Shown here one piece after another: positions 3,296 to 25,309 of a stretch of 64,000 bases of DNA; the first letter of the stretch is position 1, and each line of letters starts with the position of its first letter. The DNA comes from Streptomyces atroolivaceus. GTDB taxonomy: Bacteria > Actinomycetota > Actinomycetes > Streptomycetales > Streptomycetaceae. Made by a program: the position numbers and the translations under genes. The stretch is from positions 1 through 64,000 of the forward strand of contig NZ_JNXG01000014.1 in NCBI RefSeq assembly GCF_000717025.1. Direction: 5' to 3'. Under the pieces are notes generated by a model. It had not been told where the DNA came from. It made no database searches and was given only the letters and a program-made list of their open reading frames with translations.

Positions 3296-3439
3296 GCGAC
3301 CGCGCCCGCCCAGCCTCCGCCGGTCCGGGAGTCCCGATGACTTCCGGTCGCACGGAGTATGGCGGCCGACCTACCTGACCGCCCAGGCCACAGCCCGGCC
3401 GGTCGACAGAACCCGACCACCGCCCGTCGAAGGACACTC

Positions 3440-5025: not shown

Positions 5026-5034
5026 GGGCCGGTT

Positions 5035-8879: not shown

Positions 8880-8988
8880 CACACGTACGAGGGGTGGCCC
8901 CGTCCGAGGTGCCGCCCCTCGCCACTCCTGCACCACCCGGTGTCGAACGGCCACCATCGGCGCCTGCCCCGAGAAAGAACTCCCTGCC

Positions 8989-9849
8989 ATGCTGGAAGTG
9001 CTCGTTGTCGACGACCAGGCCCTACGCAACAGGGCTTTGTGCCTCCTCGTCGACAACGAGCGCGACATGACCTCTGTCCACGCACCATCCCCTGCCGAAG
9101 CAGTACGGATCAGCGGGCGCACCGGCCCTGACGTCATCGTCTGGCACACCGAACCCAGCCACTGGCCCCTGATACGACGCGCGCTGGATGCCGCACGGGG
9201 CGTCCGCGTACTGACGCTCACCGATGACGCGTCCAGCTTCAGGGCACTGCGCGCCGGGGCGAGCAGCACGCTTCCTGCCACTGTCACTGCGGACGAACTC
9301 CTGACGGCCGTACGCAGGACCGCCGCCGGGGGCGCGGTCGTGCCCTCGCCTGTGGTCAAAGCTGTCATCGAAGCGGTCCGCACCGCGGCGGTCACGGCCC
9401 CTGAGCCGCACCTGCGGTTGGCATCGCTCACACACAGGGAACTCGAAGTCATCGGCGCACTCGCCCGAGGTTGGAGCAACGACGAGATCGCCGCCCAGCT
9501 CTCCCTGTCCCGCACCACCGTGAAATCCCACGTCAGCCACATCTTCCACAAGATCGGCGCTCGGGATCGCCTCCAAGCCGTCGTCTTCGCCCTCAACGCC
9601 CCGCTATCACGACAGCTACGGCTACCGCTGCGTCCCGAAGGGGCGGATCGCCCATCCACGCAGTCCAGGCCGGAGAGCCCCAAGGTCGCCGGCCGGGCCG
9701 CTGGCCGGCTTGGTGCAGGCCGAGCCCGGACCCCTGTGGAAGCGGGGCAGCGCACCGGACAGGTCCCTCCGTACCGCCTGCTCTCAGGACATGAAGCAGC
9801 TCGACGAGACCCCTCCGAACATCTCACTACGCTTCGATTTTCATGGTAG
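8989..9849 (+). CDS. Atypical response regulator (receiver lacking phospho-Asp) with LuxR HTH
   Basis: A 286-residue protein with receiver-like N-terminus and LuxR helix-turn-helix (THRELEVIGALARGWSNDEI, then LSLSRTTVKSHVSHIFHKIG). The acidic pair is kept (VVDDQ, residues 7-9), but the usual phospho-acceptor is His53 (PDVIVWHTEP), and the conserved Lys after the GA motif is gone (GASSTLPAT). It therefore cannot be phosphorylated in the standard way and probably responds to a ligand or protein partner. A ~80-residue low-complexity tail follows the HTH. Its last codons overlap the promoter of the downstream TetR-controlled island (9824-9852). Start at ATG 8989; the longer frame overlaps the MMPL gene. 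Confidence 0.82.
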   Translation: MLEVLVVDDQALRNRALCLLVDNERDMTSVHAPSPAEAVRISGRTGPDVIVWHTEPSHWPLIRRALDAARGVRVLTLTDDASSFRALRAGASSTLPATVTADELLTAVRRTAAGGAVVPSPVVKAVIEAVRTAAVTAPEPHLRLASLTHRELEVIGALARGWSNDEIAAQLSLSRTTVKSHVSHIFHKIGARDRLQAVVFALNAPLSRQLRLPLRPEGADRPSTQSRPESPKVAGRAAGRLGAGRARTPVEAGQRTGQVPPYRLLSGHEAARRDPSEHLTTLRFSW

Positions 9850-9888
9850 CGTTCCCGTACTTAAATTCTAAGTAGAGGCAGAATTTAA
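9824..9888 (+). promoter_or_regulatory. Promoter plus TetR-type operator A
   Basis: The candidate -10 TAGCGT (9847-9852) lies 17 bp after a weak -35 (9824-9829). Downstream, 9861-9888 forms a perfect inverted repeat TTAAATTCT-N10-AGAATTTAA. The same layout occurs at 17404-17469 in front of the MFS gene, where the operator has identical length and compensating changes at the outer two bases on both sides. I infer that the TetR protein at 16761-17360 binds both. Confidence 0.7.
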
Positions 9889-9920
9889 CGGTGGTCACAG
9901 CGATCAACGAGGAGCGCACG

Positions 9921-10004
9921 ATGCCACGTCTCGAGTCCGCACTCGCGGTCTCCCGGGCGGACGACCCCGTACAGCACCACACCGCCGGGGTGATCTCATG
10001 TTGA
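9921..10004 (+). CDS. 27-residue leader ORF translationally coupled to esterase
   Basis: An ATG at 9921 preceded by AGGAG (8 bp) opens a 27-codon frame ending at TGA 10002-10004, overlapping the esterase start in ATGTTGA. The peptide (begins MPRLESALAVSRADD) has no recognised family. It may serve for translational coupling, or may be the worn-down start of an older gene. The good ribosome-binding site and the overlap argue that it is translated. No function proposed. Confidence 0.4.
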   Translation: MPRLESALAVSRADDPVQHHTAGVISC

Positions 10005-10906
10005 GCCCTCCGGAGAGGCCGAGACGTGCGGGGCTTCTAGGACGCCTCATCTCCGGAGCCCTGGCGAGAAGCGCGCGACGCAGGGAAGGAGCGCCCTTCG
10101 ACATCGCCGCCCACCGTGAGGCGTCGATCCGGATGGCCGCGAGGTTTCGGCTGCCGCGAGGAACCCAGTCGGCGGAGGAGCGGATCGCCGGCGTTCCCGT
10201 GGTGCGGTTCTCCTCGGGCGGATGCGATCGAGGTACGGTCCTCGCCTTCCACGGCGGCGCCTACATGCTCGGAACCGCTCATGTCCTGTCGATACCCGTG
10301 GCGAAGGACGGTGGTCCGGACGTCGTCAGTGTCGGTTACCGGCTGAGCCCCGAACATCCGTACCCCGCCGCGCAGGACGACGCCATGGCGGTCTACCGTG
10401 CGCTCCTCGAGACCGTCGGCGCAGCGCGTGTGGCAGTCATGGGTGACTCCGCCGGTGGCGGGCTGGCCCTCACTCTCCTCCAGGCCGCCGCCGCAGAAGG
10501 TCTGGCCATGCCGAGGGCGCTTGTCGCTGTGCATCCCTGGGCGGACCTCTCACTCAGCGGGGCGTCCTCCACCGCCAACGCAGGACGCGACGTTCTCGTA
10601 CGCTCGGAACTCGAGCAGGCGGCCGACTGGTACGCGCGTGAACGGGATCTGCAGGACCCGTCGGTCTCGCCTCTGTTCGGTTCGTTCGAACGTTTCCCGC
10701 GTACCTATATCGCCGTCGGAACACGGGACCTCCTCCTCGACGACTCGCGTCGAGTGGCATCCCGCATGCGGGATCAGGGCGTCGATGTCCGCCTCGATGT
10801 CTTCCCCGGCGCTCCGCACGGATTCAACGCAGTTCCCCTGGCACAGGGCAGGCAGTGCAACGCCCGCGCACGCGGCTTCATCGAGGCCGGCCTGCTCCCG
10901 CGCTGA
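9998..10906 (+). CDS. Alpha/beta-hydrolase fold-3 esterase (HSL family)
   Basis: A 302-residue HSL/family IV esterase-like hydrolase. The oxyanion motif is HGGAYM (residues 85-90), the nucleophile elbow GDSAGG has Ser151, the acid lies in the TRDLLLDDSR region and the catalytic His in PHGFNAV. No signal peptide is visible, so it acts in the cytoplasm. It is the first large gene of the TetR-controlled island and precedes a GH43 by 54 bp. By context it probably removes acetyl or other acyl groups from an imported plant glycoside. This role is inferred. Alternatives are a general carboxylesterase or lactonase. Confidence 0.85.
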   Translation: MLSPPERPRRAGLLGRLISGALARSARRREGAPFDIAAHREASIRMAARFRLPRGTQSAEERIAGVPVVRFSSGGCDRGTVLAFHGGAYMLGTAHVLSIPVAKDGGPDVVSVGYRLSPEHPYPAAQDDAMAVYRALLETVGAARVAVMGDSAGGGLALTLLQAAAAEGLAMPRALVAVHPWADLSLSGASSTANAGRDVLVRSELEQAADWYARERDLQDPSVSPLFGSFERFPRTYIAVGTRDLLLDDSRRVASRMRDQGVDVRLDVFPGAPHGFNAVPLAQGRQCNARARGFIEAGLLPR

Positions 10907-10960
10907 CGACGAAGCGAGATCCCGCCCTCACGACCCGCCCCCGACCTGGAGAACCACCGC

Positions 10961-12466
10961 ATGAGCACCGAACTCTTCAACCCGCTCGTTCCTGGCTTCA
11001 ACCCGGATCCCAGCGTCGTCCGTGTCGGCGAGGACTACTACCTCGTCACCTCGAGCTTCGAATACCTCCCGGGTCTGCCGGTCTATCACAGCACCGATTT
11101 CGAGTCGTGGGAGCAGATCGGAAACGTCGCGACGCGCGCTGAGCAGCTCGAGATCTACGACGTCCCGACCCCGTTCGGTGTCTTCGCGCCGACCATCCGG
11201 CACCACGACGGTCTCTTCCACGTCATCGTGACCGTGGTGGGAGGCCGCGGCTGCCTGATCTTCACCGCTGCCGATCCGGCCGGCGAGTGGAGCGACGGAA
11301 CGGTGATCGAAGGCCTGCAAGGAATCGACCCGGACCTCGCTTGGGACGAGCACGGCAATGCATACGTCACCTACTGCGGCTCCTCGGAGGCGAACGGGGA
11401 GACCCGGCCCTCGATCCTGCAGGTTCAGGTGGATGTCGCATCGGGGACGGTCCTCGAAGGACCCCGGCCGCTCTGGTCCGGTACCGGATTGAAGAACCCG
11501 GAGGCACCACACCTCTATCAGCGCGGGGGCTTCTGGTACTTGCTGATCGCCGAGGGCGGGACAGAACGAGGCCACGCGGTCAGCATCGCCCGCTCCACCT
11601 CCCCCGAGGGCCCCTTCGAAGGGAGCCCGTCGAATCCGTTCCTCAGTGCCCGCAGCACCGACCGGCCGATCCAGAACACCGGCCACGGTGACATCGTCGA
11701 ACTCCCCGACGGCAGCACCGGCATGGTCCTCCTCGGAATGCGCCCTGTTGGGCTGATGCCGGCCTTCTCTCCGTTGGGCCGGGAAACCTTCGCGACACGC
11801 CTGGAGTGGGTGGACGGCTGGCCGGTCGCCGAACCCGTGACGCCGAACGCGCGGCAGGAGACGATCGAATTCCACGACGCGTTCACCGCGGAGAGCTTCG
11901 ACAACGGGTGGGTGGCTGTGCGGCGCACCCCCTCCGAGGTCGCGTCCGTCAAGAACGGGGACCTCGTTCTCGTCGCGGACGGTGAAGGTCTCGATGACCC
12001 GCACCCCACCTTCCTCGGCCGGCGCCAGACCGGTCTCACGGCCAAGGTCTCCGTCGAGACCGACGTATCGCGGGGCACAGGCGGCCTCAGTCTCCGCTTC
12101 GACGAGCACCATCACTACGACCTCGAGGCGCGTTCCACGCCGCAAGGCGTTCGCCTCCTCGCTCGCGCGCGGTTGGCCGGAATCCAGCAGGAGTGGCATG
12201 CCGATCTTCCCGCTGGACCGATCATTCTGCACGTCACAGCCATGCCGAACGCGGGACAGGGCTCGCTGGCGGAGCCGGTCGAACACGTGACGTTCACTGC
12301 CGCTCCGGTCGGCGACGAATCCGCAGCCGTCACCGTGGCCGTGATCGACGGCCGTTACCTCTCGGCCGAGGCGGTCCTCTCCTTCACCGGACGGGTCCTC
12401 GGGCTCTACTGCACCGAGGGCGCCGTCACGTTCCGCGGCTTCTCCTCTGTCAGCACGAACGCTTGA
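10961..12466 (+). CDS. GH43 beta-xylosidase / alpha-L-arabinofuranosidase-like
   Basis: A 501-residue two-domain GH43 enzyme. The N-terminal five-bladed propeller begins NPLVPGFNPDPSVVRVGEDY, with the catalytic base Asp in FNPDPS and the pKa-modulating Asp in GIDPDLAWDEHG; a Glu in KNPEAPHLY is the likely acid. Residues ~310-500 form the beta-sandwich (GH43_C2/DUF1349) domain characteristic of xylosidases of subfamilies 11/12. No secretion signal, so substrates are hydrolysed inside the cell. In this island the likely job is removal of a terminal xylose or arabinose from an imported glycoside; oligoxylan use is the alternative. The start ATG 10961 leaves only 54 bp after the esterase. Confidence 0.9.
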   Translation: MSTELFNPLVPGFNPDPSVVRVGEDYYLVTSSFEYLPGLPVYHSTDFESWEQIGNVATRAEQLEIYDVPTPFGVFAPTIRHHDGLFHVIVTVVGGRGCLIFTAADPAGEWSDGTVIEGLQGIDPDLAWDEHGNAYVTYCGSSEANGETRPSILQVQVDVASGTVLEGPRPLWSGTGLKNPEAPHLYQRGGFWYLLIAEGGTERGHAVSIARSTSPEGPFEGSPSNPFLSARSTDRPIQNTGHGDIVELPDGSTGMVLLGMRPVGLMPAFSPLGRETFATRLEWVDGWPVAEPVTPNARQETIEFHDAFTAESFDNGWVAVRRTPSEVASVKNGDLVLVADGEGLDDPHPTFLGRRQTGLTAKVSVETDVSRGTGGLSLRFDEHHHYDLEARSTPQGVRLLARARLAGIQQEWHADLPAGPIILHVTAMPNAGQGSLAEPVEHVTFTAAPVGDESAAVTVAVIDGRYLSAEAVLSFTGRVLGLYCTEGAVTFRGFSSVSTNA

Positions 12467-12611
12467 GAAGCATGCGCCTGGCTCAACTCCGTTTCCGTAT
12501 GCAGCCGTTCGCCATTCCCCGAACAACGCACCGCAGCTGTCTTCCTTCTCCGTCTGCCGCCGTGCAGGACGCACCCGCCGGCCTGCTATCAGCACGAATC
12601 CGAGGCTCCCG

Positions 12612-12755
12612 ATGAGCACTTCTCTCAGCCCCACGCACCTGTCAGCCGGAGAACAGACCAGCGCTGCCGTCCTGCCGGACCAGCGGCCGACCTTGTCCTG
12701 GCGCCCTCCCGCCGGCTTCGTGACACAGATCGCCGTCGAGCTGAAGCGTGGGTGA
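12612..12755 (+). CDS. N-terminal piece of split GH78 alpha-L-rhamnosidase
   Basis: A 47-residue frame from ATG 12612 to TGA 12753-12755. Its end, LPDQRPTLSWRPPAG, is the classic opening of the N-terminal beta-sandwich of bacterial GH78 enzymes (usually PxLSWRL). The following gene continues that domain in another frame, starting at GTG 12752 inside a GTGA overlap. Thus the first ~45 residues of the rhamnosidase are out of frame with the rest. This could be a real frame change with coupled translation, a damaged gene, or a sequencing error. Confidence 0.6.
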   Translation: MSTSLSPTHLSAGEQTSAAVLPDQRPTLSWRPPAGFVTQIAVELKRG

Positions 12756-15286
12756 ACGGCCGGAGACATGTGCACCGCACGGACACCCCCGTACCACGCG
12801 CGGAATGGCCGTGGGAGCCGCTCCCGAGCAGGGTCGATCTGACCTGGCGCGTCCGGGTCATGAATGAAGCGGGGTGGTCGTCGTGGTCGGATACCGCGCA
12901 CGCCCACGCTCCACTCTGGCACGAGCACGACTGGACCGGACGGTGGATCTCCCCGGTCGAGACGGACGAGATGGCGAAACAGCCGGACCGTGGCGCCTAC
13001 GAACTGCGTACGGCGTTCGTACTGGACGACGTGCCGGCCGGCGCCCGGCTGTATGCGACCGCCCTGGGGCTCTACGAGGCCACCGTCAACGGCTCCCGCG
13101 TCGGGGACGTCGAGCTGGCACCCGGATTCTCCAGCTACGGTGAGACGTTGTACGCCCAGGCGTACGACGTTCGGGCCCTTCTACGGCCGGGACACAACAC
13201 GATCAGCTTCACCCTGTCGGACGGATGGTTCCGCGGCAGGAACGGCGGCCCGCAACTGCGCGACGTCTGGGGCAACCAGGTGGCGGTCCGCGGCCAGCTC
13301 GACGTCACCGGTGGGGCAGGGTCCGCGACCACGGTGATCGCCACGGACCACCGGTGGGACGCCCGCCGCTCCCCCGTCACCCGCGCTGACCTGATGCGCG
13401 GACAGTCGACGGATCTCCGAGCCCTCCCGCTGGACGACGTCGGCCTCAGCGCGGGCACGGTCCACGCGCCCACACCAAGGTGGTCGCCGTCGCCCCCTGT
13501 CCGGTGCGTCGACCAACACCGCCCCCACGGCATCACCGAGATCCGGCCCGGAGTGTCCATCGTCGACGCGGGGCAGAACATCTCCGGTCGACTGCGCCTG
13601 GAGACCTTGGGCCAGCCGGGCGACACGACGACGCTCGAATACGCGGAGCACCTCGGACCGGACGGTGACCTGGAGACCGAGCATCTCAACATGCCGGTGC
13701 CCGGTGGTTCCCAGATGGTGTACACACAGATCGACCAGGTCACTGCGGGCACCGGACCAGCAGTGTTCGAACCGCGTCACACCGTGCACGGGTTCCGCTA
13801 TGTTCGCGTCTCCCACCTCGGCCGCAGCCTCGAACCGCAGGACGTGACCGTCGACGTCGTCCACTCCGACCTCGAACGCCGCGGCTGGTTCGCCTGCGAC
13901 GTGGAGGACCTGGTTCGGCTCCACGACGCCGCGGAGTGGAGCTTCCGGGGCAACATCGTCGATGTCCCGACCGACTGCCCGACCAGGGAACGCTCGGGCT
14001 GGACAGGCGACTACGCCATCTTCGCCCCTGTGGCCACGATGCTCTACGACATCGAGGGCTTCACGCTCAAATGGCTGCAGGCCGTCCGCGACGACCAGGC
14101 CTCCGACGGAGTGCCGGCGATGTTCTCCCCCGACTCGACACGGATGAAGCAGAACCCGGGCGACATCGCCCGGTTCGCGGGCGGCTCGGCGGCATGGGGC
14201 GACGCGCTCGTCGATGTTCCCTGGGCGATCTACACCGCGTACGGAAACACCCGCGTCCTTCGCGACAGCTGGGACAGCATGACTTCCTGGGCCGGCTACG
14301 CCCTGTGCTGCGCCAGGGAAATCAGGCATCCGGACCGGATCCGGCGATCGGCGACACCCGCCGGGCACGAGCGGTTCATCTGGGACGGACCGTTTCACTT
14401 CGGCGAGTGGGCCGAACCCAAGAAGCCCGGTCACGACGCCTTCGCGGAAGCGGCCGTGGAGGATCCCATGACCGCGCTGAGTGCTGACCAGGGAGAGGTC
14501 GCGACCGCCTATCTGTACCGTTCGCTGACCCGCCTGAGCGCGATCGGCCAGGTGATCGGTCGCGCGGAGGAGGCCCGGGAGTACGCGCGTACCGCGCGAC
14601 AGGTACTGGAGGCGTGGCGGACCGAGTTCCTCCGCCCGGGAGGGCGCACGGCCGCCGACACGCAGGCGGCGTACGTGAGGGCCATCGCTTTCGGGCTCCT
14701 CCCCTCTTCGTCCGTCCCTGCGGCTTCGGACCGTCTCGCGGAACTGATCCACGACAACGACGACCGGCTGGCCACCGGTTTCCTTTCCAGCGGACTGTTG
14801 CTGCCGGTCCTGGCAGACACCGGACACACGGACCTGGCCTTCCGGCTGCTTCTGCGTGACGGCATCCCGTCATGGATGGAGATGCTCCGCCGCGGCGCCA
14901 CCACGGTCTGGGAAGAGTGGGAGGGGGTCGATGACGAAGGGCACGCGCACGCATCGCTGAACCACTACAGCAAGGGCGCGGTAGTCCAGTTCCTGCACGC
15001 CTACCTGGTCGGCCTGCGCCAGGACCCGGCGTCGGCCGGGTGGGAGCGCTTCGTCGTCGCACCGACGATCGGCGGGGGCGTGTCCTCGGCGCGCTTCCGT
15101 CACACGACGCCCCGGGGTGACATCCACATCGCCTGGAAACTCACCGGCAGCCGCTTCCAACTGGACCTGGAAGTTCCCCCCACCTCCTCGGCCACCGTGA
15201 TCCTGCCGGACGGCCGGCGCGGAACCCGCGGCCCGGGAAGGCACCGGCTGACGTGTGAAAGCCCGAGGGGGCAGGCGTCCCCGTGA
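12752..15286 (+). CDS. GH78 alpha-L-rhamnosidase (main part)
   Basis: An 844-residue inverting alpha-L-rhamnosidase body. The order is: rest of the N-terminal Fn3-like domain (DLTWRVRVMNEAGWSSWSD), Bac_rhamnosid_N-like jelly roll (YELRTAFVLDD..., EATVNGSRVGDVELAPGFSSY), the (alpha/alpha)6 catalytic domain and a C-terminal beta domain. The general-acid region is DVPTDCPTRERSGWTGDY and the base region is ATTVWEEWEG. No signal peptide is seen in either frame, implying cytoplasmic action. It should cleave terminal rhamnose from a plant glycoside. It begins at GTG 12752, overlapping the stop of the 47-residue piece, and ends 127 bp before the next esterase. Frame damage may reduce activity. Confidence 0.85.
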   Translation: MNGRRHVHRTDTPVPRAEWPWEPLPSRVDLTWRVRVMNEAGWSSWSDTAHAHAPLWHEHDWTGRWISPVETDEMAKQPDRGAYELRTAFVLDDVPAGARLYATALGLYEATVNGSRVGDVELAPGFSSYGETLYAQAYDVRALLRPGHNTISFTLSDGWFRGRNGGPQLRDVWGNQVAVRGQLDVTGGAGSATTVIATDHRWDARRSPVTRADLMRGQSTDLRALPLDDVGLSAGTVHAPTPRWSPSPPVRCVDQHRPHGITEIRPGVSIVDAGQNISGRLRLETLGQPGDTTTLEYAEHLGPDGDLETEHLNMPVPGGSQMVYTQIDQVTAGTGPAVFEPRHTVHGFRYVRVSHLGRSLEPQDVTVDVVHSDLERRGWFACDVEDLVRLHDAAEWSFRGNIVDVPTDCPTRERSGWTGDYAIFAPVATMLYDIEGFTLKWLQAVRDDQASDGVPAMFSPDSTRMKQNPGDIARFAGGSAAWGDALVDVPWAIYTAYGNTRVLRDSWDSMTSWAGYALCCAREIRHPDRIRRSATPAGHERFIWDGPFHFGEWAEPKKPGHDAFAEAAVEDPMTALSADQGEVATAYLYRSLTRLSAIGQVIGRAEEAREYARTARQVLEAWRTEFLRPGGRTAADTQAAYVRAIAFGLLPSSSVPAASDRLAELIHDNDDRLATGFLSSGLLLPVLADTGHTDLAFRLLLRDGIPSWMEMLRRGATTVWEEWEGVDDEGHAHASLNHYSKGAVVQFLHAYLVGLRQDPASAGWERFVVAPTIGGGVSSARFRHTTPRGDIHIAWKLTGSRFQLDLEVPPTSSATVILPDGRRGTRGPGRHRLTCESPRGQASP

Positions 15287-15413
15287 CGCACCTCAGTCGG
15301 CCGCTGCCGGCTCCACCCGGAGCGCCAGAGATCCCGACCAGGCCGCCTTGCCTGCCGAACAGGCGGCCGCCCCAAGCACATCCGACACCTCCCGCACACG
15401 TTCAGGAGCCCTC

Positions 15414-16652: not shown

Positions 16653-16686
16653 GGCCCTCGGCCAACCGGCCCGCAGGAAGGGTCAA

Positions 16687-16725
16687 CAGGAGTACCGGCC
16701 GAGCAGGTGCCGGCTGGTACTCCTG
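16687..16725. terminator. Bidirectional hairpin between esterase and tetR
   Basis: 15-bp arms beginning CAGGAGTACC (16687-16701) and ending GGTACTCCTG (16711-16725), one mismatch, 9-nt loop. It sits between the convergent ends of the esterase (16652) and the TetR gene (16761), where it could end transcription in both directions. Confidence 0.6.
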
Positions 16726-16760
16726 CTTGAACACTGCTCGTCGCAGTACGGAAAGCCCGG

Positions 16761-17360: not shown

Positions 17361-17403
17361 CAGCCACCTCCAGATGACGAACGAACTTCACGTGGCCAAA
17401 ACC

Positions 17404-17469
17404 TTACCACCCTCAAATTTTCGTGCTAGCGTCCCCTCCAGCCAAATTCCAAGTGCAGTCAATATTTGG
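17404..17469 (+). promoter_or_regulatory. Promoter plus TetR-type operator B
   Basis: -35 TTACCA (17404-17409), 17-bp spacer, -10 TAGCGT (17427-17432). The operator at 17442-17469 has outer arms CCAAAT and ATTTGG and shares 18 of 28 positions with operator A (9861-9888), including the central AAGT. The changes at positions 1-2 and 27-28 are symmetric, as expected for a dimer-binding site. It lies downstream of the -10, where repressor would block early transcription. Confidence 0.72.
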
Positions 17470-17507
17470 AATGGAGGCAGTCGTCGCTGGTCAAGGAGGA
17501 TCACACG

Positions 17508-18848
17508 ATGTCCGACACCGAGTCAGAGTTCGGTGATGTCGTCCATACCGCCGACCTTGTGCTTGTCAGCCCTGAGAAGCACGAGGACGGCGCCGGCGAA
17601 CCGGTCGCCCCGTCACCGCAGCGCACCAGCCGCCGTGGCGTAGCCGCCATCCTCGTCGCGATGGCGGGAAACGCCGCCGCGACCCTGATGCCGCCCCTGG
17701 TCGCCCTGCCGATCTACGTCGAGAAGTTCGACTCGGAGGACAAGGCGACATCATTGGGCGTAGCGCTGGGCCTCAACGCGCTGCTTCTGCTGTTCCTCAC
17801 TCCGATATTCGGCGCGCTCAGCGACCGGACGACCAGTCCACTCGGGATGCGCAAGCCCGGCCTCATCGCCGGCACCGCGATCATCGTGCTCGGTCTCGTC
17901 GTGCAGGGCCTCGCGTCCGGCGTCGGGACACTCATCCTCGGCACCCTCGTCATGGCACTCGGCCAGGCCGCTTTCACCGCCTCCTTCTCCGCACTGATCC
18001 CTGACCAGGTGGCCCCTACGGGCCGCGGCCGGGTGCTCGGATTCCAGAGCCTCGTCCTCGTGGTGGTCGGCGTGAGCGCCTCCTTCGTCGGACCGGTGCT
18101 GCTCGACCATCAGCTCCTGCTCTTCACCGTGGGCGGAGGAATCGCGATGCTGACCACCCTGGCTGCCGTGGTCCTCCTCGACGACCGCGTACTCGACAAG
18201 CGGAACGCGCCGAATCAGCCCCCGCTGCGCGCGCTGGTGGAGGGATTCGCCTACCATCCGAAGTCCGCGCCGGACTTCTCCTGGGTGTGGTTGAGCCGCT
18301 TCCTCGTCACCCTGGGCATCTCCTTCGGCGGGTTCTCCATCTACTTCCTCACCGATCAGCTCAACGTGACGGACGACGAGCTTCCCTCTCTGATCAGCCT
18401 GTCCGCCGTGATCAACCTCGGCGGAACCGTGATCGGCACCCTCCTCGGCGCCTTCTTGGCCGACAAGCTCGGACGCCTGAAGAGCCTCGTCATCTTCACC
18501 GGCCTCATCTTCCTCGCCGGCGGACTGATCGCGGCCTTCTCCCCCACCGTTCCGGTCTTCCTGCTCGCCACGGGGGTGATCGCCGTGGCCATCGGGTCAT
18601 TCCTCCCGATAGACGGCGCGCTGGTGATGGCCGTCCTTCCCGGCGGTCAGGCGCAGACCGGCAAGTACATGGCGATCATCACGATCGCCGATCAGCTTCC
18701 GCGATCCGTCGGCCCGTTCCTCGCACCCGTTGTCGTCGCCGTCGGCGCGGCCACACCGCTGGGCGGCTACCCGCTGCTCTACCTGTTCATGGGAGTCGTC
18801 GCGGTGGCCGGTGGGCTCGTCGTCCGCAAGGTGAGAAACGTCCGATAG
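17508..18848 (+). CDS. MFS permease, probable glycoside importer
   Basis: A 446-residue major facilitator with 12 predicted membrane helices after a ~45-residue soluble N-terminus. Helix 2-3 loop GALSDRTTSPLGMRKPG and the mid-protein GAFLADKLGRLKS are typical MFS loops. ATG 17508 has AAGGAGGA at ideal distance; the frame can be read upstream through the operator but lacks a start with a ribosome-binding site. It is the first gene right of the TetR operator and lies 41 bp before a GH1 gene. No ABC transporter is present in the island, so this is the likely entry route for the intact glycoside. Export of an aglycone is the alternative. Confidence 0.85.
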   Translation: MSDTESEFGDVVHTADLVLVSPEKHEDGAGEPVAPSPQRTSRRGVAAILVAMAGNAAATLMPPLVALPIYVEKFDSEDKATSLGVALGLNALLLLFLTPIFGALSDRTTSPLGMRKPGLIAGTAIIVLGLVVQGLASGVGTLILGTLVMALGQAAFTASFSALIPDQVAPTGRGRVLGFQSLVLVVVGVSASFVGPVLLDHQLLLFTVGGGIAMLTTLAAVVLLDDRVLDKRNAPNQPPLRALVEGFAYHPKSAPDFSWVWLSRFLVTLGISFGGFSIYFLTDQLNVTDDELPSLISLSAVINLGGTVIGTLLGAFLADKLGRLKSLVIFTGLIFLAGGLIAAFSPTVPVFLLATGVIAVAIGSFLPIDGALVMAVLPGGQAQTGKYMAIITIADQLPRSVGPFLAPVVVAVGAATPLGGYPLLYLFMGVVAVAGGLVVRKVRNVR

Positions 18849-18889
18849 TGCGAAACGAACGACCACTCGACACGAAAGAGCTCCGCCCG

Positions 18890-20119
18890 ATGACCACACC
18901 TCTCAGCACCCCGATCAACACCCGGGAAGGCTTCCTCTGGGGCGCCGCGACCTCACCGCACCAGACGGAAGGCGGAAACGTCCACTCGGACTGGTGGCAG
19001 TTGGAGAACGCCCCGCAGTCGTTCGTCAGCGAACGCAGCGGCGACGCGGTCGACAGCTACCACCGCTATCCCGAGGACATGCGCCTGCTCGCCGAGGCCG
19101 GTCTGAACGCCTACCGTTTCGGGATCGAATGGGCACGCGTCGAGCCGGCTCCAGGCGTCCACCTGGAATCCGAACTCGCCCACTACCGGCAGATGATCGA
19201 GACAGCCCGGAGTCTCGGGCTGACGCCGGTCGTCACCCTCCACCACTTCACCACCCCGGCCTGGTTCGCCCACCAGGGCGGATGGCTGCACCCGGACGCC
19301 GTCGACCTCTTCGCCCGTTACGTCGAACGAGCGACGACGATCCTGCACGACGTCGACTGGGTGTGCACCATCAATGAGCCCAACATCATCGCAGCCATGA
19401 CAGCACTGTTCCGGCAGCAGGCCGCAGGATCCGGCGGCTCAGGCGAGGCGACCAACCGTGACGCGGTGACAAGTCTCAGTCTCCCGACTCCGGACACGGA
19501 GGTCGCCGACGCCCTCACCGCAGCCCACCGTCGCGCGGTCGAGATCGTGCACAGGAAGACGCACGCGAAGGCCGGCTGGACGGTCGCGGGCCAACAGTTC
19601 GAACCGACCCCGGGCAACGAGGCCGTGTTCGAACGGACGCGCCGGGACTGGGAGGACAGATTCCTCCTCGTGTCCCGCGAGGACGACTTCGTCGGTGTCC
19701 AGGCGTACACCAGTCAGAAGGTCGATGAGAACGGACCTGTCCCCCACCCCGCCCACCCCACCAACACCCTGAGTGGCTGGGCGTACCGCCCGGACGCCCT
19801 TGAAATGGCGCTCCGCCACGCCTGGGACGTCACGGGCGGCACGCCGCTGCTCGTGACCGAGAACGGCATCGCCACGGACGACGACACCGTCCGCGTCCGG
19901 TACACGGGAGAGGCCCTGACGGGACTCGACAAGGCCGTCGCAGACGGCATCGACGTCCGCGGGTACCTGCACTGGAGCGCTCTCGACAACTACGAATGGG
20001 GCCACTGGGGACCGACGTTCGGCCTCATAGCCGTCGACCGTACGACGTTCGAACGCTCCCCGAGGCCGAGCCTGGAATGGTTCGGCCGACTCGCCCGCAC
20101 GGCCGTCTCCGCCAGGTGA
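18890..20119 (+). CDS. GH1 family beta-glycosidase
   Basis: A 409-residue retaining GH1 enzyme with acid/base Glu163 in TINEPN and nucleophile Glu324 in VTENG; GFLWGAATSPHQTEGG at the N-terminus and HWSALDNYEWGHW near the C-terminus are family marks. It is somewhat shorter than the common 440-480 residues. No signal peptide. The usual activity is beta-glucosidase; in this island it probably removes an internal or terminal beta-glucose (or galactose/fucose) from the imported glycoside. The start ATG 18890 follows CTCCGCCCG, a weak ribosome-binding site, suggesting coupling to the MFS gene. Confidence 0.9.
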   Translation: MTTPLSTPINTREGFLWGAATSPHQTEGGNVHSDWWQLENAPQSFVSERSGDAVDSYHRYPEDMRLLAEAGLNAYRFGIEWARVEPAPGVHLESELAHYRQMIETARSLGLTPVVTLHHFTTPAWFAHQGGWLHPDAVDLFARYVERATTILHDVDWVCTINEPNIIAAMTALFRQQAAGSGGSGEATNRDAVTSLSLPTPDTEVADALTAAHRRAVEIVHRKTHAKAGWTVAGQQFEPTPGNEAVFERTRRDWEDRFLLVSREDDFVGVQAYTSQKVDENGPVPHPAHPTNTLSGWAYRPDALEMALRHAWDVTGGTPLLVTENGIATDDDTVRVRYTGEALTGLDKAVADGIDVRGYLHWSALDNYEWGHWGPTFGLIAVDRTTFERSPRPSLEWFGRLARTAVSAR

Positions 20120-20159
20120 CGAGGACCTGCGCCGTCCCCGACAGTCCGAAAGCACACCA

Positions 20160-20477
20160 GTGACACCCGACGTGTTCTCCTCTGATGTCGTGCGGTTGAT
20201 CACCCTCAACTACGTCGGCGAACCCTCACGGCTCACTGCCCGTACGCCTTCCCCGGAGGGCACGACCTGGAAGGTCTGCCACCCGCGTTCCTCCTGAACG
20301 CCGATGCCGACAGCCTCCGCGCCTCGGCACAGCGGTTCGGGGCCGAACTCGCCACGGCGGGTGTCGACGTCCGTGGTCAAGGAAACGGGCACCCTGCACG
20401 GCCATCTGAACGACCCCGGGCTGCCGGCCGCGACGCGGAGCAGCGAACGCATGGCAACGTGGCTGACGTCGACGTGA
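20160..20477 (+). pseudogene. Relic of alpha/beta-hydrolase (frameshifted, catalytic centre lost)
   Basis: The stretch begins at GTG 20160 with VRLITLNYVGEPSRLTA. After a frame change it reads YAFPGGHDLEGLPPAFLLNADADSLRAS. After another it reads VKETGTLHGHLNDPG and ERMATWLTS. In order these are the cap-proximal part, the acid (NADAD) and the catalytic-His end (LHGHLN) of an HSL-type alpha/beta-hydrolase. The HGGG and GxSxG segments are absent, so the gene lost its N-terminal two thirds and suffered two frameshifts. It sits between the GH1 and GH3 genes and implies that the island once carried a third esterase. Confidence 0.65.
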
Positions 20478-20574
20478 TCCGGGAACCGGCCGACAGGCCT
20501 CTGCGGCCCTGTCGCGTCAGCCGGTCCGAAGCACGAGAGCGGTGAACACCATGTCCAAGAAGAAGGAGATCGTC

Positions 20575-22854
20575 ATGCAGCATCCACTGACCGCCACCCT
20601 CACGCTCGAGGAGAAGGCCGGTCTCGTCTCCGGCGCATCGTTCTGGCGGACGCGAGGTGTCGAGCGACTCGCGATCGAACCGGCGACCCTGACCGACGGC
20701 CCGCACGGAGTGCGACTTCAGACCGGCGCGGGCGACCATCTCGGCATCAACGAGAGCCGACCCGCGACGGCATTTCCGACCGCGACGTCGCTCGGTTCGT
20801 CGTGGAACCCCGCTCTGGTCGAGGAGGTGGGGCGCGCGCTGGGAGCCGAGGCCCGCGCCCTGGGCGTCGACATCCTGCTCGGACCCGGCGTCAACATCAA
20901 ACGGTCACCGCTGTGCGGACGGAACTTCGAGTACTTCTCGGAGGACCCGTTCCTGTCGGGCGCGCTCGGCACGTCGTGGGTGAACGGCGTGCAAGCGCAG
21001 GGAGTGGGCGCTTCCCTGAAGCATTTCGCCGCCAACAACCAGGAGACGGACCGGATGCGCGTCGACGCGGTCGTCGACGAGCGAACCCTCCGCGAGATCT
21101 ACCTGCCCGCGTTCGAGACCATCGTGGATCAGGCGAATCCGGCGACCGTGATGTGCTCCTACAACCGGGTCAACGGCACTTCCGCGTCCCAGAACCGATG
21201 GCTGCTGACCGACGTCCTGCGAGACGAATGGGGCTTCCAGGGATACGTCGTCTCGGACTGGGGCGCCGTCGTCGACCCCGACGCCGCGCTCGCGGCCGGT
21301 CTCGACCTGGAGATGCCCTCGACCGGCGACCGGGGCCCGGCCGCGATGGTGGAAGCCGTCCGCGCCGGAGCGGTCGACGAAGCGGACCTCGACCAAGCGG
21401 TGTCGCGCCTGCTCACCGTCCACGACCGGGTCCGCGCCTCCCGAGGAGAAGCCCCGGAGGCGGACCTGGATGCCCATCACGGCCTGGCCCGGCGTACCGC
21501 CTGCGAAGGCGCCGTACTCCTCAGGAACGAGGACACCCTCCTTCCCCTGAGCCCCTCCCAGGGCGGCCGGATCGCGGTGATCGGCGAGTTCGCACGCACC
21601 GCCCGCTTCCAGGGCGCCGGCAGTTCACAGATCAACCCCACCCGCGTCGACGACGCCCTCACGGCGATCCGAGCCAAGACCACACGCGAGGTCGTCTTCG
21701 AGTCGGGCTTCAGTCTCGACGGAGCCGACTCCGACGCGCACGAAGCGGCCGTCCGAGCCGCGCGTGACGCCGACACCGTCGTGCTGTTCCTCGGCCTTCC
21801 GCCGCAGGAGGAATCCGAAGGGTTCGACCGCACCCACATCGACCTCCCGGCCGCCCAGCTCGCCCTCCTGGACGCCGTCACCGAGGTCAGCCGGCGCGTT
21901 GTCGTCGTCCTCAGCAACGGCGGCGTGGTGTCCCTGCGGCACATCGCCGACCGGGTGCCCGCGATCCTGGAGATGTGGCTGGCGGGGCAGGCCGGCGGCT
22001 CGGCAGCCGCTGACCTCCTCTTCGGAGCCGCGGAACCCGGCGGACGCCTGGCCGAAACCATTCCACTCGCCCTCACCGACACGCCCGCGCACATCAACTG
22101 GCCCGGCAGCGACAGCCGGGTCCTGTACGGCGAGCGCGTCTACGTCGGCTACCGCTGGTACGACACCACCGAGCGCGCGGTGGCGTTCCCGTTCGGCTTC
22201 GGGCTCTCGTACACCTCGTTCTCCTACTCGGACCTTCGAGTCACGGTCACGGACCCGTCGGTCGCCCGAGTGACCGCGGAGGTGACGGTGACCAACACCG
22301 GGTCACGACCCGGCTCCGACGTCGTGCAGATCTACGTCTCCGCCCCCGCCTCGCGGACGGATCGCCCACACCGCGAACTGCGGGCCTTCCGCAAGGTCCA
22401 TCTCGGCCCCGGCGAGTCGACGACCGTAGCCCTCACCTTGGGCCACCGGGCCTTCGCCTACTGGTCGAGCACCGGTTGGCGGGTCGATCCCGGCGAGTAC
22501 CGGATCGAGGCCGCCGCCTCCTCCCGCGACATCCGCGACATGGCCACGATCGTCCTCGAGGTACCTGCCGTGGCCACGCCGCTCCGCGCCGACTCGACGC
22601 TCGACGAGTGGAAGGCCCACCCCGTGGGCGGCCCGGTGCTCCAAGGCCTCTTCGACCTGATCGGTGGCACGCCCCCCGAGCTCACCGACCCGCACCTGCT
22701 CGTCATGATCGGCCCCATGCCGTTGGCGAACCTCATCGCCATCGCAGCCGGTGTCGACGGCCGGGAGACCGTGGCGCACCTGCTCCACGAAGTGGACCAG
22801 CACACACCGGGCCGGAGCCACCTCGAGGCCGGACAGTCCCTACCTCGACCGTGA
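20575..22854 (+). CDS. GH3 beta-glucosidase-like enzyme
   Basis: A 759-residue GH3 enzyme: the TIM-like domain with LGPGVNIKRSPLCGRNFEY, KHFAANNQE (149 onward) and the nucleophile Asp228 in YVVSDWG; then the alpha/beta sandwich (~330-560) with GAGSSQINP; then a fibronectin-III-like domain (~590-690) and a ~60-residue helical tail. No secretion signal, so it acts inside the cell. ATG 20575 has GAAGGAGA just upstream, and I prefer it to starts at 20542 or 20551. Typical activity is exo-acting beta-glucosidase or beta-xylosidase; the N-terminal DGPHGVRLQ motif is common to glucosidases of this type. Confidence 0.9.
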   Translation: MQHPLTATLTLEEKAGLVSGASFWRTRGVERLAIEPATLTDGPHGVRLQTGAGDHLGINESRPATAFPTATSLGSSWNPALVEEVGRALGAEARALGVDILLGPGVNIKRSPLCGRNFEYFSEDPFLSGALGTSWVNGVQAQGVGASLKHFAANNQETDRMRVDAVVDERTLREIYLPAFETIVDQANPATVMCSYNRVNGTSASQNRWLLTDVLRDEWGFQGYVVSDWGAVVDPDAALAAGLDLEMPSTGDRGPAAMVEAVRAGAVDEADLDQAVSRLLTVHDRVRASRGEAPEADLDAHHGLARRTACEGAVLLRNEDTLLPLSPSQGGRIAVIGEFARTARFQGAGSSQINPTRVDDALTAIRAKTTREVVFESGFSLDGADSDAHEAAVRAARDADTVVLFLGLPPQEESEGFDRTHIDLPAAQLALLDAVTEVSRRVVVVLSNGGVVSLRHIADRVPAILEMWLAGQAGGSAAADLLFGAAEPGGRLAETIPLALTDTPAHINWPGSDSRVLYGERVYVGYRWYDTTERAVAFPFGFGLSYTSFSYSDLRVTVTDPSVARVTAEVTVTNTGSRPGSDVVQIYVSAPASRTDRPHRELRAFRKVHLGPGESTTVALTLGHRAFAYWSSTGWRVDPGEYRIEAAASSRDIRDMATIVLEVPAVATPLRADSTLDEWKAHPVGGPVLQGLFDLIGGTPPELTDPHLLVMIGPMPLANLIAIAAGVDGRETVAHLLHEVDQHTPGRSHLEAGQSLPRP

Positions 22855-22904
22855 TCGCCGCGAGCGGCCCTCGGAACGCGCCGCATTCACCGGAAGACGC
22901 CTTC

Positions 22905-25226
22905 ATGACTCTCTGGCACGGGCGATTCATCGCCGCCGACAGCACGACCCATGACGCACCTCTCCTACGTCACACGTTCACCTCGGAACAGTCGCACGGC
23001 CCCATTCAGCAAGCGACGCTCGCACTCTCCGCACTCGGTGTGTGCGAAGCGTTCGTCAACGGGGTGGCCGTCTCCGACGATCTCCTCACCCCCGGGTGGT
23101 CCAGCTACGAGTGGCGGGTCCGCTACACCGAACACGACGTCACGCCCCTTCTCGCCCCCCGGTCGACGATCGGTATCGCGCTCGGCAACGGCTGGTACCG
23201 CGGCCGGCTCGGATGGGGCGGGGGCGCGGAGAAGTACGGCGACGAGATCGCCGCGTTCGCACAACTGCGCATCCGCTACGCGGACGGACACGAACAGGTC
23301 GTCGCGACCGACTCGACCTGGCGCAGCGGCGCAGGACCGGTGACCGCCAACGATCTCTACGATGGACAGAGCATCGACGCTCGCCGGGCCGACGGCGCCT
23401 GGATGCTCCCCGGCTTCGATGACAGCGGCTGGCAGGGGGTGCACGTCGTCGACGCCGACCTCGGCATCCTGGAGCCGTACATCGGCCCGCCGGTTCGTCG
23501 GCAGGAAGAAATCGCGCCGGTCGACGTGTTCACCAGCCCGAGCGGTGCGACACTCGTCGACTTCGGGGTGAACATCGTGGGCTGGGTCCGTGCCCAGGTC
23601 ACCGGTGCGGCGGGATCCGTCGTCACACTCCGCCACGCGGAAGTGCTGGAGGCGGGCGAGATCGGTGTCCGCCCGCTCCGCACGGCCAAGGCGACGGACA
23701 CCTTCACCCTCAGCGGCGGAGAAGACGTCTTCGAACCGACGTTCACGTTTCACGGCTTCCGCTACGTCGAGGTCACCGGATGGCCCGAGGGCGCGACGTC
23801 CATAGCGGACGGTGGCCTCACAGCGGTGGTGATCGGCTCCGCGCTGCGCCGCACAGGAACGTTCAGCTGCTCCGACCCGCTCCTGAACCAACTGCACACC
23901 AACGTGGTACGGGGCTTGCGCGGCAACTTCGTCGACGTGCCCACCGACTGCCCCCAGCGCGACGAACGGCTCGGCTGGACCGGAGACATCTCCGTGTTCA
24001 CCCCCACCGCCTCATACCTGTTCGACGTGAAGGACTTCCTGCGCGACTGGCTTCGCGATCTCCACCTCGAACAGGCAAACCGCAACGGCCTCGTCCCGGT
24101 CGTGGTGCCGGACGTGATGAAGAAGATGCAGCTGCCGCCCGGCGTGCCGGAGGTGGACTCCACGGCCATCTGGGGCGACGCGGCCGCGTGGGTGCCGTGG
24201 GCCCTCTGGCAAGCCTACGGCGACCCGGTCGTTCTGGAGGAGTCGTTCGACGCGATGGCTGCCCACGTCCGCCGTGTCCGATCGCTCCTCTCTCCCACGG
24301 GTGTGTGGGATGCGGGTTTCCAGTTCGCGGACTGGCTCGACCCCGACTCCGATCCCGCCCAGCCCTGGATGTCGAAAGCCGACAACGGCGTCGTCGCGAC
24401 CGCAAGCGCCTACCGAAGCGCCGTCATCACCTCGGACACAGCGGCCGTCTTGGGACGAACAGCCGACCGGGAGGAGTTCAGGGAAATGGCCGCGGGCCTC
24501 CGCCGCGCGTTCCGCGAACAGTACGTGGATGGCGAACGCATCCTCAGCGACTGCACCACCGTCTACTCCCTCGCCATCGTCTTCGGCCTTCTCGACGACG
24601 ACGAAGCCACATGGGCCGGGGCCCGACTCGCCGAACTCGTCGCGGAGAGCGACTACGTGATCTCGACGGGGTTCGCCGGCACCCCCTTCGTCACCGACGC
24701 CCTCAGCCGCACCGGACATACCTCCACCGCCTACCGACTGCTGCTGCAGAAGGAATGTCCCTCCTGGCTCTACCCCGTCACCATGGGCGCGACCACGATC
24801 TGGGAACGCTGGGACTCCATGCTCCCCGACGGATCCATCAACCCCGGCGAGATGACCAGCTTCAACCACTACGCACTCGGGTCGGTCGCCGACTGGATGC
24901 ACAGAGTGGTTGCCGGCATCGCGCCGCTGGATCCCGGCTACCGCCGTATCCTCATCGCCCCGCAGCCCGGGGGCGGGCTCGACTGGGCCGAGAGCGAGCT
25001 CGACACCCCGCACGGGGTTGCTCGTGTCCACTGGTCGTCGACGGCCGGAACCATCGAACTCGACCTCACCGTACCCAGCGGGAGCACTGCTGTCGTTCGC
25101 TTGCCGGGGCGCCCTGAGCACTGCGTCGGGCCGGGCAACCACACCTTGACGGCAGAGGCAGGAGACGTGACAGGCAGACCAAGCTCGTGGCAGCGAGAGC
25201 GAGAGGTACCTGAGGCCACACCGTGA
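22905..25226 (+). CDS. GH78 alpha-L-rhamnosidase (second copy)
   Basis: A 773-residue GH78 enzyme. It starts directly with the jelly-roll domain (CEAFVNGVAVSDDLLTPGWSSYEW) and lacks the extra N-terminal Fn3-like domain of the copy at 12752. The catalytic domain has the acid region DVPTDCPQRDERLGWTGD and base region TTIWERWDSM. No signal peptide, so cytoplasmic. It begins 50 bp after the GH3 and is the last gene of the island. Two rhamnosidases of different architecture suggest two distinct rhamnosyl linkages, or a backup for the frame-damaged copy. Confidence 0.92.
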   Translation: MTLWHGRFIAADSTTHDAPLLRHTFTSEQSHGPIQQATLALSALGVCEAFVNGVAVSDDLLTPGWSSYEWRVRYTEHDVTPLLAPRSTIGIALGNGWYRGRLGWGGGAEKYGDEIAAFAQLRIRYADGHEQVVATDSTWRSGAGPVTANDLYDGQSIDARRADGAWMLPGFDDSGWQGVHVVDADLGILEPYIGPPVRRQEEIAPVDVFTSPSGATLVDFGVNIVGWVRAQVTGAAGSVVTLRHAEVLEAGEIGVRPLRTAKATDTFTLSGGEDVFEPTFTFHGFRYVEVTGWPEGATSIADGGLTAVVIGSALRRTGTFSCSDPLLNQLHTNVVRGLRGNFVDVPTDCPQRDERLGWTGDISVFTPTASYLFDVKDFLRDWLRDLHLEQANRNGLVPVVVPDVMKKMQLPPGVPEVDSTAIWGDAAAWVPWALWQAYGDPVVLEESFDAMAAHVRRVRSLLSPTGVWDAGFQFADWLDPDSDPAQPWMSKADNGVVATASAYRSAVITSDTAAVLGRTADREEFREMAAGLRRAFREQYVDGERILSDCTTVYSLAIVFGLLDDDEATWAGARLAELVAESDYVISTGFAGTPFVTDALSRTGHTSTAYRLLLQKECPSWLYPVTMGATTIWERWDSMLPDGSINPGEMTSFNHYALGSVADWMHRVVAGIAPLDPGYRRILIAPQPGGGLDWAESELDTPHGVARVHWSSTAGTIELDLTVPSGSTAVVRLPGRPEHCVGPGNHTLTAEAGDVTGRPSSWQREREVPEATP

Positions 25227-25309
25227 CCACGCACACGAGACATCCTCGCTGTCTGTGTCGTGTAACAGGCGGGCCGCCGTGGCATCTCGAGGATTCCCAA
25301 CCTGCATTG

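Follow-up and report, generated by a model that had tools for sequence, protein, structure and literature searches.

A putative TetR-controlled regulon for import and cytoplasmic deglycosylation of a plant glycoside in Streptomyces atroolivaceus

Described deglycosylation systems and gene content of the island

Operons that combine a GH78 rhamnosidase with an MFS transporter for phenolic rhamnosides are known from Lactobacillus plantarum, which belongs to another phylum and apparently uses another type of regulator. In actinobacteria, a steroidal-glycoalkaloid cluster (RhaA/GluA/GalA; families GH2, GH3 and GH78) has been described from Glutamicibacter halophytocola S2 (PMC10653915); it is also reported from Arthrobacter sp. 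S41, and its enzyme activities are given in PMC9597252. This cluster shares with the locus studied here its actinobacterial origin and the pairing of a rhamnosidase with a beta-glucosidase, there directed against the branched trisaccharide of a plant toxin. The saponin-hydrolysing set of Sphingobium sp. RC1 likewise includes GH78 and GH3 enzymes, but its six candidates have predicted Sec or Tat signals. The earlier note on this DNA mentioned TetR-controlled clusters for saponins and glycoalkaloids; the Glutamicibacter solanine-cluster paper did not confirm this, as its text contains none of the terms "TetR", "MFS", "transporter" and "regulator". No description of a TetR-MFS-glycosidase arrangement was found in the literature at the level of titles and abstract openings, a scope that mostly excludes subscription papers and leaves the absence of such a description unproven.

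Within the window (the whole stretch of 64,000 nucleotides that was analysed), an island at 9.8-25.2 kb comprises two GH78s, a GH43, a GH1, a GH3, two esterases, an MFS permease and one TetR regulator (Table 1). All of these genes had been named in the earlier note, and each was verified by Pfam domains. Its bounds (9824..25226) hold for the gene set, but the control region opens already at 9818. In comparison with RhaA/GluA/GalA, GH78 and GH3 are present and GH2 is missing from the trio, while GH43, GH1, a second GH78 and the esterases are additional. The island also differs from a Gram-positive polysaccharide utilisation locus in that no glycoside hydrolase with a signal-type N-terminus lies inside it.

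Table 1. Coordinates of island genes, candidate operators and other features in the window.
Feature	Position	Strand	Basis or remarks
Candidate TetR operator, promoter 1, distal	9818..9841	.	2 mismatches to AAAWTCT-N10-AGAWTTT; 45 bp ahead of 9863 site
Candidate TetR operator, promoter 1	9863..9886	.	perfect 7-10-7 palindrome
Esterase 1, Abhydrolase_3/HSL-like	9998..10906	+	PF07859 E=2.5e-50; no signal-type N-terminus
GH43 with C-terminal GH43_C2 (beta-xylosidase/alpha-L-arabinofuranosidase type)	10961..12466	+	PF04616 E=1.4e-72
GH78a N-terminal fragment, other frame than main ORF	12612..12752	+	reading frames
GH78 alpha-L-rhamnosidase A, main ORF	12752..15286	+	PF17389 E=1.8e-87
Esterase 2, BD-FAE/Abhydrolase_3, three N-terminal membrane spans	15411 (approx.)..16652	+	Pfam, hydropathy
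Hairpin in the gap between esterase 2 and the convergent tetR	16683..16730	.	folding energy
TetR-family regulator, BetI-type C-terminal domain	16761..17360	-	PF00440 (39.9 bits, cut-off 24), PF13977 (48 bits, cut-off 27)
Candidate TetR operator, tetR/MFS divergent promoter, distal	17398..17421	.	2 mismatches to generalised palindrome
Candidate TetR operator, tetR/MFS promoter, proximal	17444..17467	.	imperfect, 3 mismatches; 46 bp past distal site
MFS permease	17508..18848	+	PF07690 E=2.5e-25 (ORF scanned from 17466)
GH1 beta-glycosidase	18890..20119	+	PF00232
Remnant of a decayed esterase C-terminus, frame shifting	20119..20540	+	frames; PF07859 E=7e-5, 23.1 bits, cut-off 25 (one of two pieces)
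GH3 glycosidase	20542..22854	+	PF00933/PF01915
GH78 alpha-L-rhamnosidase B	22905..25226	+	PF17389 E=6e-112

Both rhamnosidases contain the Bac_rhamnosid N, concanavalin-like, 6-hairpin and C domains. GH78a is interrupted by a frame break near 12738-12759, which puts the leading ~45 codons from ATG 12612 out of frame; the fragment aligns with the start of the GH78a protein of locus L103 (see below) at 52% identity over 29 residues. The esterase remnant is 46% identical to an intact esterase in locus L027. Since GH78a is frame-split and one esterase has decayed, partial erosion of the island is possible. The best model for GH3 was the alpha-L-arabinopyranosidase model NF041610 (886.7 bits, under the curated cut-off of 1300). 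The nearest solved structure to GH1 was SGR_2426 (8kap), a sophorose enzyme according to PMC12369401.

The region containing the hairpin (16680-16745, 66 nt) has a minimum free energy of -37.3 kcal/mol (z -4.6; one of 200 shuffles as good). The hairpin, absent from the output of a consensus terminator scan, is a possible two-way transcription stop. A sigma-70 scan of 9700-25400 returned no promoter. The G+C content of the island is 68.1%, compared with 70.8% in 20 control stretches; as both flanks are equally low (68.7 and 67.6%), the island has no compositional boundary.

Operator-like palindromes at the two operon promoters

Each of the two operon promoters carries a pair of 24-bp palindromes, some of them imperfect, at a distance of 45-46 bp. 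The most upstream site overlaps the 3' end of the preceding LuxR-type ORF (8830-9849). With up to three mismatches, a first consensus, derived from the 9863 and 17444 sites themselves, matched only these two sites in the 8.2-Mb genome, and its reversed control matched none. A generalised palindrome, AAAWTCT-N10-AGAWTTT, was drawn after the sites in another Streptomyces genome (G1064) had been seen. It yielded seven sites in the 8.2 Mb at up to two mismatches, three of them at the two island promoters, and 22 sites at up to three mismatches, four of them in the island, compared with five sites for the reversed control. The four promoter sites were the only ones found on the island's contig at the latter threshold; a weaker place at 30058 has four mismatches to a stricter form of the palindrome. 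The location of the pairs at exactly the two operon promoters agrees with the prediction of the earlier note that the island is controlled by one TetR protein.

In G1064, two sites 45 bp apart (one and three mismatches) precede the MFS gene and one (one mismatch) precedes tetR; apart from the two one-mismatch sites, the 10.3 Mb contain none at up to two mismatches. A scan of eight other loci did not reveal one operator sequence common to the whole TetR subfamily. In six of the eight, a repeated element particular to the locus lay upstream of TetR or GH genes, a count made without a chance control; L028 had none and L038 had one only elsewhere. The same scan ranked the island's own pair low (six mismatches).

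Relatives of the island and of its regulator

A search for the same gene order in other genomes yielded no syntenic copy of the whole island, only partial relatives (G184, G426 and G1064). Locus L103 of G1064 has MFS, GH78a, GH1 and TetR in a row, with identities to the island proteins of 43-45% (MFS), 61% (GH78a), 63% (GH1) and 57% over 125 residues (TetR). Unlike in the island, tetR stands at the operon end and is not divergent, and a GH3 gene (50%) lies 11 kb off; relatives of the island GH43 and of the two esterases are absent at E<=1e-10, and two genes of the PF00144 beta-lactamase/esterase fold are present. On plasmids pVQ28-1 of Clavibacter michiganensis (L078) and pLRE138 of Rhodococcus erythropolis (L079), MFS is directly followed by GH78, and GH3 is also present, but MFS is just 30-31% and GH78b 48% identical to the island proteins. 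L078 additionally has GH1, GH43 and GH2 and differs from the island by LacI genes at both its ends, L079 by rhamnose catabolism genes.

Among named homologues, those nearest to MFS, TetR and GH43 were Pseudarthrobacter proteins (67-76%). In Pseudarthrobacter scleromae (67, 73 and 76%, respectively) the three apparently reside on one contig of 66,964 bases, judged from matching contig sizes; between the MFS and TetR homologue lists 16 contig sizes matched, compared with six in all over 40 offset controls. The MFS searches covered two sets of family genomes (200 and 394), 394 class genomes and 396 genomes of the order of G426, and four first-look candidates per genome (eight in the 200-genome search) were scored, so that misses are possible. 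A comparable MFS occurred in one of 393 other family genomes. No match at 1e-80 was obtained in the 396 genomes, an empty answer that is uninformative for absence, and none on plasmids at 1e-40. A relative of MFS was present in only 4 of 20 larger neighbour loci. GH78b reached at best 55% identity across 61 relatives, and esterase 2 had one weak relative in the scanned genome contigs.

A glycoside hydrolase gene was found within 1.5 kb in 13 of 19 loci of TetR homologues but in none of 20 loci of other TetR proteins of the same genome, which argues against chance. Judged by gene neighbourhood, the TetR subfamily is linked to glycosidases.

Proposed function and alternative readings

We favour, with moderate confidence, a two-operon regulon, repressed by TetR, through which a branched and acylated glycoside with rhamnose would be imported and then deglycosylated in the cytoplasm; its substrate is most likely a saponin- or flavonol-like product of plant specialised metabolism. 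Operon 1 (esterase 1, GH43, GH78a, esterase 2) would be transcribed from a promoter near 9.84 kb and operon 2 (MFS, GH1, GH3, GH78b) from the divergent promoter region between tetR and MFS, near 17.42 kb. When substrate is lacking, TetR dimers would occupy the paired palindromes on either side of the presumed -10 box at each promoter, so that both operons, and tetR with them, are repressed. Esterase 2 would strip acyl groups at the cell surface, and the MFS permease would import the glycoside, probably by proton symport; binding of the glycoside or a product would then release TetR. In the cytoplasm, the GH78s would take off terminal rhamnose, followed by removal of xylose or arabinose by GH43 and of inner arabinopyranose or glucose units by GH3 and GH1, with esterase 1 clearing residual acyl groups.

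The predicted location of the enzymes was examined by hydropathy (19-residue mean, threshold 1.6). Peaks within the first 80 residues were below threshold in GH43 (0.84), GH78a (0.11), GH1 (0.4) and GH3 (0.64). In GH78b a peak of 1.65 at residues 38-56 falls within the rhamnosidase N domain, and segments above threshold in GH43 (85-103, 1.74) and GH3 (720-738, 1.94) are deeper and not N-terminal. None of the glycosidases thus has a signal-type N-terminus, as the earlier note had stated. Its proposal of cytoplasmic stripping by the whole set applies to the glycosidases but not to esterase 2, which appears membrane-anchored because of three N-terminal hydrophobic segments (37-55, 67-85 and 98-116; peaks 3.11, 2.12 and 1.87); its catalytic domain is probably outside the cell.

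Alternatively, the island might complete the breakdown of oligosaccharides that contain rhamnose, xylose or arabinose and are set free from pectin (rhamnogalacturonan I) or arabinoxylan by lyases and other enzymes whose genes lie to the right. This flank (27-64 kb) is a rhamnogalacturonan-utilisation region with PL4 and PL11 lyases, GH42, GH43s, ABC importers and LacI genes, and rhamnogalacturonan fragments are therefore a nearby source of rhamnose. GH78 and GH43 are known from pectin and xylan use, and five of eight plasmid-borne relatives of the island TetR that were examined adjoin ABC importers. We nevertheless regard this reading as rather unlikely: on this contig the palindromes at up to three mismatches are confined to the island promoters, the weaker place at 30058 aside, the flank is equipped with LacI genes and ABC importers of its own, and no lyase was encoded among eight ORFs scanned upstream of the G1064 MFS gene.

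Were the MFS protein an efflux pump, TetR would respond to a glycoside or aglycone that is toxic, and deglycosylation and export by the island would serve detoxification. Divergently transcribed tetR and MFS genes are typical of efflux systems, and efflux and vesicular pumps (VMAT, NorA, MdfA) topped a fold search with the MFS structure model (pLDDT 84.3), in which SLC45A4 ranked 29th; this search with a predicted fold did not separate import from efflux. At the sequence level, homologue P0003 had no match among solved structures. Efflux is nonetheless improbable. The sugar-transport domain MFS_2 (PF13347) was present in 27 of 50 homologues among the matches listed and in the L027 relative, and homologue P0012 was named SLC45 family by NCBI, although P0012 has no MFS_2 entry and the island MFS has no match at E<=1e-3. 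Cytoplasmic glycosidases moreover require an importer, and the island has no other transporter gene. These data are in line with the role of island permease that had been assigned to MFS. A microbial natural product with sugar decorations, made by the strain itself or by a competitor, seems a very improbable substrate: Streptomyces make many deoxysugar glycosides and no sequence feature links the substrate to plants, but GH43, GH78 and esterases fit plant sugar decorations, and the subset of window ORFs scanned contained no glycosyltransferase or antibiotic-biosynthesis domain.

If regulated import and deglycosylation of a plant glycoside is the correct reading, the island offers a defined repressor, defined operator pairs and a limited number of enzymes for identifying the plant glycoside that is recognised and degraded by a soil Streptomyces, and the operator pairs make the question of the substrate directly testable. 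More tentatively, a distinct TetR subfamily could serve specifically to switch loci for glycoside stripping throughout Actinomycetota, with a 23-24-bp palindrome (7-bp arms) that is particular to each regulator and in many cases present twice around the promoter, and with a cassette (GH78, GH43, GH1, GH2, GH3, esterases) that is swapped to fit one glycoside. A subfamily-wide glycosidase link would allow many unannotated actinobacterial loci to be recognised from the regulator, and, if the switch reading is true, regulator phylogeny together with the operator would predict which glycoside a bacterium recognises.

Gene set and layout of the island

Nine intact or nearly intact genes were found between positions 9998 and 25226. 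Pfam assigned them, in order, to esterase, GH43, GH78, esterase, TetR, MFS, GH1, GH3 and GH78, as proposed in an earlier note, and they form two same-direction runs with one opposite-strand regulator gene, tetR, between them. The hairpin between the runs folds at -37.3 kcal/mol (66 nt; z -4.6), with one of 200 shuffles equally good. Scanning 9700-25400 with simple consensus patterns revealed no sigma-70 promoter, and the hairpin was absent from the resulting terminator list.

The first ~45 codons of GH78a (start ATG at 12612) lie in one frame and the remaining protein, from ~12752, in another. As this leading piece aligns with a relative's N-terminus at 52% over 29 residues, it belongs to GH78a; the frame break is either genuine or an assembly error. 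Between GH1 and GH3, the tail of an Abhydrolase_3 esterase was found in shifting frames (20119-20540; one of two pieces scanned matched, E=7e-5, 23.1 bits, cut-off 25; 46% to the intact esterase of homologue locus L027). It is either a former third esterase or a sign that the island is eroding.

The MMPL gene of the left flank has a 46% identical counterpart near L027, and on Clavibacter pVQ28-1 a TetR-GH locus adjoins genes for a response regulator, a kinase and an MMPL protein; this may be coincidence.

Features of the window and their positions
Feature	Position	Content or location
Possible small oxidation cassette	727-4297	AraC-type regulator, FMO-like monooxygenase, short-chain dehydrogenase
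Left flank	4351-8879	Directly left of island: LuxR-type response regulator, histidine kinase, MMPL transporter
Candidate operator	9863-9886	Upstream of operon 1; 24-bp palindromic consensus shared with 17444-17467
Run 1		Esterase 1-GH43-GH78a-esterase 2
Hairpin	16683-16730	Strong; between convergent esterase 2 and tetR ends
Candidate operator	17444-17467	Between tetR and MFS; 24-bp palindromic consensus shared with 9863-9886
Run 2		MFS-GH1-GH3-GH78b, after minus-strand tetR
Rhamnogalacturonan-utilisation region	27000-64000	GH43s, ABC importers, Gfo/Idh/MocA oxidoreductases, LacI regulators
PL4 lyase	37065-39284	Rhamnogalacturonan region
GH42	41351-43453	Rhamnogalacturonan region
PL11	43491-45416 and 62622-63902	Rhamnogalacturonan region
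Single ORF	58819-60426	Sigma-70 region 2 domain and C-terminal AbfB (arabinofuranosidase B) domain
ORF	60703-61938	Two Lcl_C stretches

Operator-like pairs in two genomes

The consensus derived from the two candidate operators themselves had, beyond these sites, no match with ≤3 mismatches in 8.2 Mb (reversed control, 0). The generalised palindrome AAAWTCT-N10-AGAWTTT occurs in the window's genome at 22 places with ≤3 mismatches (reversed control, 5) and at seven with ≤2. Of these places, four at ≤3 and three at ≤2 fall at the two island promoters, because a second copy is present at each, giving pairs at 9818 and 9863 (45 bp apart) and at 17398 and 17444 (46 bp apart); the other 18 of the 22 lie elsewhere in the genome. 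Each pair flanks TAGCGT, which is common to both promoters and could be their -10 box.

Among 394 family genomes searched, only one other, G1064 of the same genus, had an MFS match at E≤1e-75. Its genes for MFS, GH78a, GH1 and TetR are consecutive, with identities to the island proteins of 43% (tblastn) or 45% (genome search), 61%, 63% and 57% (125 residues within its locus, L103), respectively. Upstream of MFS, a one-mismatch site lies 45 bp before a three-mismatch site, and an additional one-mismatch site precedes tetR. In the 10.3 Mb of G1064, these two one-mismatch sites are the only ones with ≤2 mismatches (28 with ≤3), a rank that is partly circular as the generalised pattern was drawn up after the G1064 sites had been seen; neither the 45-bp spacing nor the positions upstream of MFS and tetR were built into it. 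The paired operator-like arrangement recurs in this second genome. Upstream of these genes, L103 encodes a dihydroxy-acid/6-phosphogluconate-type dehydratase (5799-7700) and a zinc alcohol dehydrogenase (10093-11121), possibly for later steps with a released sugar.

Regulator subfamily and possible transfer of the island

Of 200 genomes of the family, 107 had a TetR homologue at E≤1e-15, a count that takes in the genome of the window itself. Loci of 3.5 kb from 19 other genomes with the best TetR matches (one shortened by a contig end) were compared with 20 other TetR loci of the window's genome, chosen from the upper part of a list of 100. A relative of one of the five island GHs lay within 1.5 kb in 13 of the 19, versus none of the controls (one-sided Fisher test, ~3e-6, hand-calculated). 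In 12-20-kb views such GHs were present in 15 of 18 TetR-chosen loci (L029-L046) and both MFS-chosen loci (L027, L028), and a relative of the island MFS in just four of the 20. L030 contains GH1, GH2, MFS, GH78, TetR and a partial GH42-like gene; L027 contains esterase, GH78, GH3, TetR, MFS, GH3 and esterase.

In a scan of eight other loci, made without chance control, six (L027, L030-L034) had their own repeated element upstream of TetR or GH genes, L028 had none, and L038 had one elsewhere only. L032-L034, with elements of the type AAAACCG-N9-CGGTTTT, are perhaps a separate conserved regulon of the same family. Each of these three loci has two TetR genes, flanking GH3 and GH1.

TetR also matched 77 plasmid records (62 Rhizobium). 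Among eight plasmid loci examined, all actinobacterial, seven had a GH nearby, five ABC importers and two MFS; the eighth (TetR relative H24), with only a short 'glycosyl hydrolase' ORF ~6 kb off, was scored as a miss. Judged by plasmid and genome neighbourhoods, the TetR subfamily is linked to glycosidases and is not specific to saponins. On a Rhodococcus erythropolis plasmid (L079, 5886-16634), rhamnose isomerase, kinase and aldolase genes adjoin MFS, GH78 and GH3, and transposase genes flank both sides. Actinobacterial GH2/GH3/GH78 glycoalkaloid clusters, and Sphingobium enzymes with signals, have been reported (PMC9597252, PMC10653915); among the papers listed by literature searches, titles and opening lines of abstracts contained no description of a TetR-MFS-GH switch of this kind.

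The closest named homologues of MFS, TetR and GH43 (67, 73 and 76%) are from Pseudarthrobacter scleromae, and each of these entries gives 66964 as its longest contig. Paenarthrobacter nitroguajacolicus (MFS 61%, TetR 69%) and Actinoplanes lutulentus (TetR 69%, GH43 65%) likewise gave equal sizes, 4406289 and 547665. When self matches were set aside, the 50 MFS homologues and the 119 TetR homologues listed (of 234 in all) had 16 contig sizes in common, versus 6 in total over 40 offset controls. Equal size is strong but incomplete proof of a common contig. The first 34 of 120 listed GH43 homologues shared four sizes with the TetR list and two with the MFS list. The best Streptomyces-named MFS homologue among those listed reached 52%. 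This pattern fits transfer between actinobacterial lineages, with no direction implied; G+C marked no island boundary.

Cell location, transport and substrate

A hydropathy scan found no hydrophobic N-terminal segment in any of the GHs, consistent with the earlier claim that they lack export signals; above-threshold segments are internal (GH78b 38-56, GH43 85-103, GH3 720-738). The proposed cytoplasmic location holds, by prediction, for the glycosidases but not for esterase 2, which has three such segments close to its N-terminus. Membrane proteins can be oriented by the positive-inside rule, and an arginine-rich stretch between spans 2 and 3 suggests that its catalytic domain lies outside the cell membrane; one of the deacylation steps thus probably takes place at the surface of the cell.

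AlphaFold modelled the island MFS with confidence (pLDDT 84.3). A fold search ranked VMAT, NorA and MdfA at the top and SLC45A4 29th, a ranking that does not speak for import. The annotation of homologues does speak for it: 27 of 50 listed homologues have an MFS_2 entry (neither the island MFS nor its homologue P0012 has one), and P0012 is named 'SLC45 family'. From this we infer an importer. Streptomyces GH-transporter clusters are reported to hold mostly ABC and MFS transporters (PMC10272396), and a functional MFS importer of xylo-oligosaccharides has been reported (PMC8990778).

Among solved structures, the GH78s are closest to 6gsz and 3w5m. GH43 is closest to 5z5d (beta-xylosidase) and 5jow (alpha-L-arabinofuranosidase), and GH1 to 8kap (SGR_2426) and 4r27, presumably BGL167. 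The best NCBIfam model for GH3, alpha-L-arabinopyranosidase, scored under its cut-off. SGR_2426 is reported to prefer sophorose, and BGL167, a GH1 enzyme of strain Gsoil167, to act on glucosides from the triterpenoid saponin Rb1 (PMC12369401). Together these matches suggest a molecule with rhamnose, xylose/arabinose and glucose units that also bears acyl groups, as in saponins and flavonol glycosides, but none fixes the substrate. The main rival source is rhamnogalacturonan, whose utilisation region forms the right flank of the island. In that region, the ORF at 58819-60426 is an odd pairing of regulator and sugar-binding module.

Substrate and transport direction are the least secure parts of this reading; the gene set, two-operon layout, operator-like pairs and glycosidase-linked regulator are the most secure. 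The island is a real, probably regulated glycoside-catabolic unit.
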